From Schizochytrium sp. TIO01 (Eukaryota > Sar > Bigyra > Thraustochytrida > Thraustochytriidae): a stretch of 64,000 nt of DNA. The notes under the pieces were generated by a model, which was given only the letters and a program-made list of their open reading frames with translations, was not told the DNA's origin and ran no database searches. Location of the stretch: the NCBI GenBank assembly GCA_004764695.1, contig SMSO01000033.1:635001-699000 (forward strand), given 5' to 3'. Within the stretch, counting starts at the first letter, position 1; each line of letters starts with the position of its first letter. Positions 2,460 to 8,500 of the stretch are shown piece by piece. Made by a program: the position numbers and the translations under genes.

Positions 2460-4229
2460 ATGTCAATGCCCCCGTCTGATCGGATGCGACCATGGTCGGC
2501 CAAGCAGCACAGCTCGCTTAACTCGCAGGCAATATCTTTAGAAAAAACGAGCTCCATACCCGCACGTCCAGCGTCGGCTATGGACCGTCTTCGGAGTAAT
2601 CGAGATATTGGTGACCCACTGACAGGGATTCGAAAACGCAACTTATATCAAGCTCATGCGCGACGAATCTATTCTCGTGAAATGACAAATCTTGACGAGC
2701 AACTTGACATGCTTGCTGCATCCATGCGTCAAGGACCTGAGAAGACTGATCATGAAAAGCGCGTGACAGCTATGGCGGCCCACCTCAACAAACAAGCTCG
2801 AGATGCTTTCCTTCAAGAGTCGCAGCATCAAGCAGCAGGCTATGCGGGCCGTCGGAGACCTTCCGCAACAGCTGTAGAGCCAAGCGTGCCTTTACACATC
2901 GCCAGTCAACGTGCTGAAGAATCAGCGAAGGCATATGGACACGGGGCTACACCATTTACTCGTCATGAACCAGAAGTCGAAGCCGAACAGTGGCTCGAAC
3001 ACATGTGGCTCGCTAAACGTACAAAGGATATGGTTTCCCGGGCACAGGAAGAGCAAGTACGGAAAGCTTTACGAGATTGGGAACGACAGCGACAAGAACG
3101 CGAAGATGCATTTGAAAACATTCTTCGGAAGAGAAAACAGTTACGGGGCTCAACTTTGCCGATGGGCTGCAAATCATCTCGAAGTGTCGATAATCGTGTG
3201 GAGGTGGATTCTGATGTACAGAGAACTCGTATGGAACGAAATCTCAAAGTCTTTGAAACTACAACAACAAATTCACATGTACCCCCGCCCCCCTTTCGAC
3301 AGCATTCCGCTAGTACTGCGGAGCAGTTGCAAAGACCTAAGTCAGCAGTTCCTACTCGCCGAGCGAAATCATTTTCCCTACGCTCAGAAAATGATGCTTC
3401 CTCAGCGCAAAAAAAACAAGCAATCGAATCCTCCAGTAAATCTCGCAAGATTGTTCCTTCGCATTTACTTGTTCAACGACGTGTGGTTATGAGCAAGACA
3501 AAAATTAACCCAGTTGAAGAGAAAATGGACGAGAGGAATAACGCTCCTTCACATAATGATGTGGCGCTAGAAGACCTCAGTGAGGGATCACAAGAGCTAC
3601 CGGAGAGTTCGATTAGAAGCAGCGCCGGAAAACCATCCCCAGGAACCGAGCTTTTGACTGGAGAATCCAATAGAGAGGCAGATTCGAGTTTAGAAAACTT
3701 GGAGGATCGCTCAAGAAGAGGCTCTGAGCAGGAAACTCAGAAAGGGCTTGTAGTCCTATCCTCATCCTCAAGATGCAATAAGTTTGCCTGGGATGTTGGA
3801 GAGGATTACGAACTTGAGGTTTTAGAGAATGCAGCTAATAATCGTGCAGCTACTCATAAACTAATGCAAAACGGCAAAATCCAGTACTTGTCAGCACAAA
3901 CGAATGATCAGTTATCTGAATGCCGAGCAATTCTTGAGCGCTTTGAGGACAAAGGTCTAGGCAGCGAAATCTCAGCAGAAACACTTTATCGAGCATTAGT
4001 GACACCACAAGATATTCCTTATAAGATTGCTATTAAGAATCTTAAACTCCCAGGGAGCACACTGCCTCATGACCCTGCTGTGCTGGCCGCAAAGAAGGCT
4101 GCTTCTGGGAAAAAGGGAAAGAAGAAAGGACTCAAAAAGAAAGCGGGTGGAGCTAAGAAGAAAGCAAAGAAGGCAGGAGCAAAATCGGGCGCCTCATCAC
4201 CAAAGAAGGGGAAGAAAAAGAAGAAGTAG
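2460..4229 (+). CDS. Basic coiled-coil protein with lysine-rich tail, possibly cytoskeletal
   Basis: A 589-residue intronless frame from an ATG at 2460. I do not recognise a named family. The N-terminal region carries repeated short motifs of the type R-P-x-S-A (about residues 35-40, 135-140 and 285-290), a flavour common in microtubule- and axoneme-associated proteins. Charged helical segments lie around residues 60-130 and 170-235, where runs of R, K, E and Q suggest coiled coil. Residues 310-450 are Ser/Glu-rich and probably disordered. The last 40 residues are almost entirely K, G and A in histone-H1-like blocks, which would bind acidic surfaces such as the tubulin tail or nucleic acid. 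It converges with the UBE3D-like gene 278 bp downstream. The function is inferred from composition only. Confidence 0.75.
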   Translation: MSMPPSDRMRPWSAKQHSSLNSQAISLEKTSSIPARPASAMDRLRSNRDIGDPLTGIRKRNLYQAHARRIYSREMTNLDEQLDMLAASMRQGPEKTDHEKRVTAMAAHLNKQARDAFLQESQHQAAGYAGRRRPSATAVEPSVPLHIASQRAEESAKAYGHGATPFTRHEPEVEAEQWLEHMWLAKRTKDMVSRAQEEQVRKALRDWERQRQEREDAFENILRKRKQLRGSTLPMGCKSSRSVDNRVEVDSDVQRTRMERNLKVFETTTTNSHVPPPPFRQHSASTAEQLQRPKSAVPTRRAKSFSLRSENDASSAQKKQAIESSSKSRKIVPSHLLVQRRVVMSKTKINPVEEKMDERNNAPSHNDVALEDLSEGSQELPESSIRSSAGKPSPGTELLTGESNREADSSLENLEDRSRRGSEQETQKGLVVLSSSSRCNKFAWDVGEDYELEVLENAANNRAATHKLMQNGKIQYLSAQTNDQLSECRAILERFEDKGLGSEISAETLYRALVTPQDIPYKIAIKNLKLPGSTLPHDPAVLAAKKAASGKKGKKKGLKKKAGGAKKKAKKAGAKSGASSPKKGKKKKK

Positions 4230-4507: not shown

Positions 4508-6877
4508 TCACCAAAGTAGAAATGCAAATCTCTCGTTGATGTCCTCGCGGATGACTCGTGCAGAAGGGGGCAGCCATGCATTACTTGTCTCCAGAGCTTT
4601 GGCCAAGGCGTCGAACATGTCCTTAGTGACCTGAATTACACCAAAATGTGCGTCGACGCCGTCCTGAGTTTGTTGATCCCGGTAGGTTACCTTGAGAACA
4701 GGTACCATCTCTGGTCCTGTTGCAGGTGTTCGTATCCATGAATCAGTTGTCCAAAGTTGTACGCGAAGAGAGCGACCATCAGATACACATTCAATAAGTA
4801 CTGTGCGCACTTCGTGAGTCTCGCTGAGGCGAGCCAAACGCGCTCCCAGAATGCTTCCAGCTGCATCATCATAGGTATTAAACACGGGTGTTGCAGAAGT
4901 TTGCACACGGTACTTAAAGAGACGAATTTCTTGAAGTTCATCTAGGCCTCCATCAGCAGTGCCAGCCGCGCTTATGTTTTTATTTTGACGATCAGGGACG
5001 ACTGCTTCACCAATCCAAGAGCCACATGACTTACACTCAATAGCTCGCCGTATAAGATGTTCCTGGGAGCGAGTGGCATCATCAACGGCTTGTTTTACGT
5101 TTGCAAGCTCTATGCAAAGTTGGATAGCTTCAAGATTTGCATCCTCGCGGCAAACGTCTACGTGCGCATCGTCTAAGACAAGCACTCCAGGACGTGCAAC
5201 GATAGCCTCTGATCGAAACGCCCTTGTCGCAGCATCGCTCGTACCTTTTGATTTCTCATAAACTTCTGGTGGAACACAAGTGAGATGCTCAAGCATCTCA
5301 GTCCAGGGCATCAAAGGAGCTTGATTGACGCTATGGGATGGTTTAGTTAAACTAGCTGCACACTTACGGCATTGAATACCGTTTCTGTAAGGGCCTTCTT
5401 CTTGTTCTACAGGCGCAGGGTGCAGTAACTGGCGCTGCAAACGAGCATTTGCTGCAGAGAACATGTTACTGAAGGCCAGGCGAGCGGCTAAAAAGTCTCC
5501 ATTATGGAAACTCAGAGTACTCCGGTCAAGATCAACTTGCTCATCTACAGCAAGTTCAATGTAAGGAACGAGATGCAAAGCCTCACGACCCGTTTTGTCG
5601 ATACAAGCCCCCCTTCGGGGCGCAAGAATTCGAACCTTGATCTTCTCGTCGATGGTCATTGTTGGAATGCGTGGATCAGGACTGGAGGTCATTAGTTTTG
5701 CAGGCAGATGAGTGCCAGAAAGATCCACCTTGCGGCCTTCTACTAGCTGGTGAAGGGGCATGTAAAGCCAGTAGCACAGGAGGTTAGGCTCCTTAAGAAG
5801 CATAAAAGGCGGGGTTGGTTCCTTGTTGATAATATGAATCCCTAATTCCGTACCTGAAATTTCGATTATCTGGGACCGCCCGGCACATCGTCTTCCTTGA
5901 TCTGCAATATACCTAAATTCATAGCGGCCCGTCTGAGCTGGGCGTCGCATGTGAATCAACCCTTCCCTTTCCCAAGGGATTGTTGGGACTTCTATATTGT
6001 AGGACTCCTCAATGTCACATTCATTCTGCAAATATAGGCCGATGAAATCCATCTGACGATCTGGTGCTGGATTTGGGCCTTCCGCTTCTAGACTTCCAGC
6101 AACCTCAAATCGAACAATAAGTACTTTTTCGTCTTCAGAAGATTTACATACATCAAGCATTACCTGAAATGTGGAGAGCGGCGGGAGCGCTGTACTAGAT
6201 CGCGATGGAGCCGGGGCACTAGGAGCTGTAGTGTTCATTTCGTGCGGCTTCGTATGAAAGCTATCGTTTGGTTCTGGATGCTGGGAGGACACTTGTGCCA
6301 TTAGAGATGCGGTGGCCTTTTCAAACTCTTCTTTCTTTCCCTTCAGGGAAGAGATTTCGTGCTGCGAGATAGAACTCTTCGCGTCCCGCAACTGCTCCTC
6401 TGCTACGTTCTTGGCTCCTGATGCTCTCTTAAATTGTTCAAGTGCCTCTTGTGTTTCCTGTTGAGAGGCAGAAAGTGATTCGAATGGGTCCACATGTCCA
6501 AGGCTCTTGGCGATACTTTTGAGTTGTTTGCGATCGTCTTTAGTCAGGCATCGAGCTGCCGCTTCATGCAATGCTGTTGAGGTAAGATCTTCATCCCCAA
6601 ATTTATGTGATGCGCGAGCAAGGCGAACCCATCCTTTTACAAAGTCATGAGGTGCATGTTTAATACAGTTGAATGCACATTTTGTAGCTTCCTCAGCATT
6701 GCCTATCTTCAGGTGAGCCATGGACAGGTTCGACCACGAAAGATGACACGAGTCATTGATATGCACTGCTTCTAAATAGTGCGTAATAGCTTTCTCTGCA
6801 TCCCCACTAGCAAGTGCTTTGTTTCCTGCTTCGCGAGCTTTACTGGCATCACCCAAGACTTGCGCTGTAGATGCCAT
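4508..6877 (-). CDS. TPR / SKICH-like / UBE3D-like (HECT_2) fusion protein
   Basis: A 789-residue protein. The start is set at ATG 6877 because the longer frame opens only at a TTG and would add an Arg/Gln run encoded by a microsatellite. Residues 12-113 form three TPR motifs of the Hsp90/Hsp70-cochaperone type. Residues 140-200 are a charged helix. Residues 250-340 resemble a SKICH-type beta-sandwich (DFIGLYLQ, a central Trp, then GRYEFRYI and a small-residue strand). From about residue 350 to the end it resembles the E2-binding E3 ligase UBE3D (HECT_2), with Cys pairs CRKC near 500 and CKSC near 614, the strand IRLFKYRV, and an LPPSAR-like C-terminal segment. UBE3D proteins are normally much shorter and lack TPRs. 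Likely role, by inference: chaperone-linked ubiquitination. Domain assignments are by eye; TPR is the firmest. Confidence 0.75.
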   Translation of the reverse strand: MASTAQVLGDASKAREAGNKALASGDAEKAITHYLEAVHINDSCHLSWSNLSMAHLKIGNAEEATKCAFNCIKHAPHDFVKGWVRLARASHKFGDEDLTSTALHEAAARCLTKDDRKQLKSIAKSLGHVDPFESLSASQQETQEALEQFKRASGAKNVAEEQLRDAKSSISQHEISSLKGKKEEFEKATASLMAQVSSQHPEPNDSFHTKPHEMNTTAPSAPAPSRSSTALPPLSTFQVMLDVCKSSEDEKVLIVRFEVAGSLEAEGPNPAPDRQMDFIGLYLQNECDIEESYNIEVPTIPWEREGLIHMRRPAQTGRYEFRYIADQGRRCAGRSQIIEISGTELGIHIINKEPTPPFMLLKEPNLLCYWLYMPLHQLVEGRKVDLSGTHLPAKLMTSSPDPRIPTMTIDEKIKVRILAPRRGACIDKTGREALHLVPYIELAVDEQVDLDRSTLSFHNGDFLAARLAFSNMFSAANARLQRQLLHPAPVEQEEGPYRNGIQCRKCAASLTKPSHSVNQAPLMPWTEMLEHLTCVPPEVYEKSKGTSDAATRAFRSEAIVARPGVLVLDDAHVDVCREDANLEAIQLCIELANVKQAVDDATRSQEHLIRRAIECKSCGSWIGEAVVPDRQNKNISAAGTADGGLDELQEIRLFKYRVQTSATPVFNTYDDAAGSILGARLARLSETHEVRTVLIECVSDGRSLRVQLWTTDSWIRTPATGPEMVPVLKVTYRDQQTQDGVDAHFGVIQVTKDMFDALAKALETSNAWLPPSARVIREDINERFAFLLW

Positions 6878-7011
6878 TATGCAGCTGATTTTAGTCGCCT
6901 TTGTTGTGCCCTGTATGAAATTGAAGTTTCTCTTTGGTAGGGGGAGAGCTTTTGATTTTTCTCCAGAATAAAATATAAACGTCTCGCCAATATTGATGTG
7001 AAGCTTACTAT

Positions 7012-7096
7012 CCGTCTGTCGTTGTCGTTGTCGTTGTCGTCGTTGTTGCCGTCGTCGTTGTTGCCGTCGTCGTCGTCGTCGTCGTTGTTGCTGCTT
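7012..7096. repeat. Imperfect CGT/TGT trinucleotide microsatellite
   Basis: An interrupted run of CGT, TGT and GTC triplets just upstream of the UBE3D-like gene, in its promoter or 5' UTR. It is open on the gene's strand and would encode an Arg/Gln tract, but no ATG lies upstream, so I read it as non-coding. Confidence 0.85.
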
Positions 7097-8500
7097 GTCC
7101 AAACCTCTCCACAACTCAACGTTTGGTTGCGAAAGATCTAATTCTCGATCGATCGATCACTCACGGCGTCGCCTGTCGAAATCTGCTCTCACTTGCAGCA
7201 GCAGTTACAGCCACCGAACTATGAAAACAAAGGCAGTAATCTTGCACTGTCTTTGCAAAAGCCACGGCGCGCAACCTCGGTAGCACAAGTTAAATTTTGT
7301 TGCTGCGTCGCAAGAGTAGCTCTAACATTATGAAGACTTTGGCAAAAAAGAAAAGAAAAGAGAACAGAATAATAACGATTAAAGTAAGACTATCATTATT
7401 TTGTTGATATCATAAAAAGAGAATCAAAACGAGCAAAACGAGAGGCTCGCCTTACTTTTATTCTTTAATTTTAATTTTTAATCTTTAAAAACTGTAGACT
7501 TGAAAAGGAAAAAGAAAAAGTGCCTAGGCTTCAATAGTAAAAGCACTACCCGTAGTATTTTAAAACGGGAACAAAGGAAAGAAGAGGAAAAAGTTAACCA
7601 CTGCGAAGATCCCAGAGATTCCCTACCACGAACAACTAATTGGAGGAAACACAACACGTAGCAATAACAACGATAAACAGATTTAAGCATCTTCCTTGCA
7701 ATGTATATCCAACTGAAGAAGTCGAAATTCCCTCCTCGAAGAGTTTGTGAGGTTTGGGACTATCGACGATGAAGTAAAGTTGAGGATGAAGTGTACCTGG
7801 CAACGATGAGAAGAATAACGAGAGATTCGGAGAAAGACTTCAAAGGGCAATAGGAGGTTGGCGATTCGCAGGCAACTTTAAACCAACTAAATTCAGTTTT
7901 GCTGCTTGAGTGAAAACAGATCAAACATTGAAATTCTCTCATTTCAAACTGCAAAAAGTACATAGGTAGTCAGTCCTATTAAGACAATTTTTCAAATCGG
8001 TCTAGTAAGCTTTGGATCTAGCTCACAACTGTGCCCGAGTGTCTCAAATCCAAGCAACACAATAATGAAGCATTGTCCTGTACACTTCTTACCAAGAAGG
8101 AGCTCTATATAGTACCTACATAATTTATTCAGTTAATATTGATAACAGTTTGCAAGAAACAATATTCTTTGTCTCCTTTCTCCAATACAAATGTTAGAAG
8201 GTTTCACCCAATTCACAAAAGAGATTGATTTTATTGTACATGAACATGGTGTTGACATTGTCTGCTGTTCTCAGCTGCGAGCGTGCGAAGTACATCAAAT
8301 AGCGAAATCTACTTGGTAGACGACGGGTCGCGGATTAGTCTGTATTTTCATCAAGGAGTACTATGAAAGCACTCTAGGGACTCGCAAGGGGAGTCAAAGC
8401 TCTTCTTCTATGTTGGTTCGAGATGTTTCACATGAGCAATTGCTTTCTTTGGCTTGAGCGTTGACAAGAGCTCAACCAATTGCCACGGCTGGTGATGCCT
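7097..8500. other. AT-rich spacer
   Basis: About 1.4 kb between two minus-strand genes. It holds many stops in all frames and A-rich runs (7330-7520). Short reading frames of 60-70 codons have no recognisable content. Nothing else is seen. Confidence 0.6.

Follow-up and report, generated by a model that had tools for sequence, protein, structure and literature searches.

Here, we describe a gene of the thraustochytrid Schizochytrium sp. TIO01 in which a TPR domain of the cochaperone type is fused to a module of the UBE3D (HECT_2) family. The gene lies in a window of 64,000 nucleotides, the whole stretch of DNA that was analyzed (contig SMSO01000033.1, positions 635,001 to 699,000), and the genome searches reported below covered the 37 contigs (64 Mb) of the assembly from which the window was cut. 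On the minus strand, an open frame of 882 amino acids runs from stop to stop (4508-7156), and its sole usable ATG, at 6877, yields a complete, single-exon gene of 789 amino acids that ends with a TGA at 4508-4510. The 789 codons contain no internal stop, the remaining two minus-strand frames contain 34 and 62, and codon position 1 has the highest guanine-cytosine (GC) content in all 10 blocks, one of them tied with position 3, so that the coordinates and frame given in the first-pass annotation (4508-6877, minus strand) are correct. A merger of two adjoining genes through an assembly or annotation error could be suspected from the differing third-position composition of linker residues 159-237; this explanation is highly improbable in view of the uninterrupted frame and of the GC peak at position 1, which continues through the linker. 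The frame is also present in the 37-contig assembly which, being the window's own source, is not an independent witness. The fusion of TPR and HECT_2 in one gene is real and well supported. Upstream of the ATG, a short-unit repeat of the CGT/TGT type occupies window positions 7010-7100; owing to this repeat, the frame extends ~90 codons upstream of the start without a stop.

Pfam, sequence matches in the PDB, and alignment with TPR proteins of the same genome identify residues 12-113 (6539-6844, minus strand), at the N-terminus of the protein, as a Hop/SGT-type TPR domain with three motifs. TPR_2 matched with an e-value of 1.5e-6 and exceeded the family cut-off when residues 1-130 were scanned separately; an NCBIfam scan gave sub-cut-off matches only, largely to TPR proteins. 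In the PDB sequence search with this part, designed consensus TPRs scored best, followed by Hop and SGT2, which bears out the earlier description of a cochaperone-type TPR array. Among natural proteins of solved structure, the TPR domains of Hop/STI1 and SGT are thus the best matches and carry the same clamp residues, although, unlike the 789-residue protein, Hop/STI1 and SGT are adaptors that have no HECT_2 module. All five positions of the carboxylate clamp (consensus K5/N9 - N6 - K2/R6; PMC2939883) are filled, by R15, N19, N50, K81, and R85. When the domain was aligned with five other TPR proteins encoded in this genome, including a Hop-like one, G18, N19, N50, K81, and R85 are invariant, whereas R15 stands where most of the five have lysine, a conservative replacement that does not interfere with binding and occurs in confirmed Hsp90 binders, for example, Hop (PMC2939883). 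Elsewhere in the genome (L026:979-2976, minus strand), a clamp-type TPR was observed within a protein whose flanks, by eye, resemble Kelch repeats.

Because the clamp is complete, and with the cytosolic Hsp70 of this genome (L009) ending in TVEEVD, the docking to Hsp70/Hsp90 tails suggested in the first-pass annotation gains support as a prediction from sequence. The cytosolic Hsp90 (L003:1417-3603, minus strand) ends in AMESVD, retaining the final aspartate and departing from MEEVD, the near-universal Hsp90 ending. The TPR domain might instead be an ordinary interaction module that is unrelated to Hsp70/Hsp90, for example, one that holds another cleavage-factor subunit, with the UBE3D half working as it does elsewhere. 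Clamp residues do not guarantee chaperone binding in every TPR domain and the deviant Hsp90 tail fits this alternative, but with five of the five clamp positions retained, as in the Hop of the same genome, and with EEVD on Hsp70, we regard it as unlikely.

Between the two conserved modules lie a charged, probably coiled-coil linker and a Pro/Ser-rich stretch, both recognized from sequence (residues 119-232; 6182-6523, minus strand); the match to the SH3BP5 coiled coil (residues 109-193) was weak, with an e-value of 0.008, below the cut-off. These are followed by a probably beta-rich stretch (residues 235-345; 5843-6175, minus strand) to which no family is assigned. It had previously been named a SKICH-like beta-sandwich, and its DFIGLY...YEFRYI does recall the DWIGIF...YQFCYV of the SKICH domains of NDP52 and TAX1BP1, but the similarity has no profile support and falls inside or close to the chance range. 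Specifically, no Pfam family matched these residues up to an e-value of 10, a genome search with the SKICH family (PF17751) did not match the locus at e-value ≤ 1, and no SKICH chain was found by the PDB sequence search with this region. A single-sequence AlphaFold2 model consisted nearly entirely of strands at low confidence (mean predicted local distance difference test score, pLDDT, of 48.8), and Foldseek with this low-confidence model gave no match. The pairwise score to the NDP52 SKICH domain, for which a provisional sequence was used, was reached in 20 of 500 shuffles (4%), and that to TAX1BP1 in 91 of 500. A search of the same genome detected no relative of the region either, and the SKICH identity was rejected.

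The C-terminal half is a UBE3D-like module (residues 346-789; 4511-5842, minus strand), delineated by Pfam and alignment, with the first ~150 residues placed by order only. HECT_2 (PF09814) matched residues 501-777 (4547-5377, minus strand) with an e-value of 2e-22 and 80.1 bits, compared to the cut-off of 22, as proposed at first reading for this half of the protein. The match spans positions 114-365 of the 369 in the profile; positions 1-113 have no significant match, and a stretch of fitting length (about residues 345-500) precedes the matched part. Searching the whole genome with HECT_2 returned a single match, the 4508-6877 locus. PDB sequence searches with a provisional human UBE3D sequence and with the C-terminal half gave no UBE3D chain, and no relatives were found in viral and prokaryote genome collections, as expected of a eukaryotic family.

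For residue-level comparison, the C-terminal 449 residues were aligned, using MAFFT, with the provisional human UBE3D sequence, which scores 276 bits against HECT_2 and agrees with PMC11904178 in its length of 389 residues and in C144, T357, and C358. Two CxxC pairs align with human ones, C503/C506 (5360-5371, minus strand) with C111/C114, by both MAFFT and profile positions, and C615/C618 (5024-5035, minus strand) with C209/C212, by MAFFT. C534 (5276-5278, minus strand) aligns with human C144: scans of short fragments placed C503, like human C111, at profile position 116, and the two-residue gap that MAFFT opens between C503 and C534 puts the latter at profile position 149, the same as C144. 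HECT_2, the two CxxC pairs, the Cys144 equivalent, and the order of conserved blocks are common to this half of the protein and to human UBE3D and yeast Ipa1 (Yjr141w). In contrast to the stand-alone human protein, ~345 additional N-terminal residues are present here, with the chaperone-type TPR domain, and there is no cysteine after residue 697, so that nothing can replace human C358, the residue that was mutated as the HECT-like site of UBE3D (PMC11904178).

These features bear on the proposal, made in the first-pass annotation, of a CHIP-like quality-control ligase. In such a ligase, misfolded proteins held by chaperones would be delivered by the TPR domain, to be ubiquitinated by the HECT_2 half with an E2 that it recruits. 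CHIP (STUB1) likewise has a three-motif, carboxylate-clamp TPR domain N-terminal to a ubiquitin-linked module, and the docking part of the proposal stands with the complete clamp. The ligase part is weak: CHIP has a U-box, whereas Pfam detects neither a RING nor a U-box nor a classical HECT domain here, and the cysteine presumed to be catalytic, which a HECT-type thioester ligase carries near its C-terminus, is missing from the HECT_2 half. Among the five U-box matches in the genome, none had a TPR in the stretches read; the possible lack of a TPR-U-box CHIP speaks in favor of the proposal, although a split exon could escape this six-frame search. The published activity of UBE3D is itself contested. 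In vitro, the ubiquitination of cyclin B is promoted by human UBE3D, and several E2s are interaction partners of yeast Ipa1 (both as reported in PMC11904178), but in cells UBE3D lowers the ubiquitination of CPSF3 (CPSF73) (PMC11904178). We consider a CHIP-like ligase improbable, and a weaker reading than a CPSF73 maturation factor.

A role in the maturation of CPSF73, the nuclease that sets mRNA 3' ends, is suggested by the known relatives in animals and yeast. In a 2025 mouse study, UBE3D binds and stabilizes CPSF3, in addition to reducing its ubiquitination (PMC11904178); the conserved Cys144 of UBE3D is reported to lie in the active site of CPSF3, at the metal site (Lin et al. 2024, as cited in PMC11904178); and yeast Ipa1 binds Ysh1 and stops its aggregation, making it a candidate assembly factor (PMC6436931). 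As far as the alignment can tell, the cysteines kept in the fusion protein, C534 and the CxxC pairs, are those tied to the CPSF73-partner function. The prospective partners are encoded in the same genome: CPSF73, with metallo-beta-lactamase, beta-CASP, and CPSF73-100_C domains; CPSF100 (named by eye); and an RBBP6/Mpe1-like frame of the DWNN/RING type (family also named by eye). CPSF73 and CPSF100 were the only two matches in the beta-CASP search of the genome, which did not show INTS11; Integrator may be absent or may have been missed by this search.

On balance, we slightly favor the interpretation that the gene product is a CPSF73 maturation factor of the UBE3D/Ipa1 type with a built-in Hsp70/Hsp90 dock. 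In this mechanism, the acidic C-terminal tail of the cytosolic Hsp70 (EEVD), and perhaps that of Hsp90, would dock into the TPR domain. The UBE3D module would take over freshly synthesized CPSF73, placing C534 over its metal site, and would maintain CPSF73 in a stable, inactive state up to its assembly with the remaining subunits of the cleavage complex. Binding of chaperones by the TPR domain is predicted from the clamp residues, binding of CPSF73 by the UBE3D module is expected by analogy with its relatives, and the hand-over between chaperone and UBE3D module is purely our inference. Taken as a whole, this is the most economical mechanism for the observed fusion, and one that we hold to be somewhat more probable than not. 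Several considerations weigh against it. Ipa1 maps chiefly to the C-terminal domain of Ysh1 (PMC6436931), unlike the active-site contact of the human protein, and the ligase and stabilizer data on UBE3D are in conflict; the Hsp90 tail is MESVD instead of MEEVD; the residue alignment uses a provisional human sequence at low pairwise identity; the structure models are all of low confidence, including that of residues 346-789 (mean pLDDT 32), which was not used; and the fusion architecture is known here from one genome. A literature search on CPSF73 as an Hsp90 client returned papers on R2TP, and CPSF73 was not among their content.

The protection of INTS11 by BRAT1 offers an analogy, in that a partner protein guards a metallo-nuclease, although BRAT1 is not known to share sequence ancestry with UBE3D. 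Going by its title as cited in PMC11904178, Lin et al. 2024 handle INTS11 and CPSF73 together with respect to their cytoplasmic partners.

Within the window, a gene without a Pfam family (2460-4229, plus strand) is convergent with the fusion gene, and others encode an M18 aminopeptidase and a relative of tubulin-tyrosine ligase. Elsewhere in the genome, 5.8S rRNA was found at no fewer than 40 places (at least 40) on many contigs, with identical scores and often close to contig ends, a pattern that resembles dispersed or subtelomeric rDNA. The 18S rRNA that adjoins the 5.8S and the dispersed rDNA tentatively suggest a thraustochytrid such as Aurantiochytrium.

If limited to one lineage, the fusion would be a lesser matter of domain shuffling. 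More broadly, and only tentatively, CPSF73 might be a general client of Hsp70/Hsp90 and UBE3D its dedicated cochaperone adaptor, the link to the chaperones being built into one polypeptide in this lineage, whereas UBE3D would reach them via separate adaptors in animals and yeast. The introduction of PMC11904178 calls the mechanism by which UBE3D stabilizes CPSF73 unknown. Gene fusions are a type of evidence by which proteins with a joint action are connected, and the natural joining of UBE3D to a chaperone-docking domain hints that this stabilization runs via Hsp70/Hsp90, a route that is directly testable in human or yeast cells. It also suggests for UBE3D a role as chaperone adaptor rather than one mainly as ubiquitin ligase.
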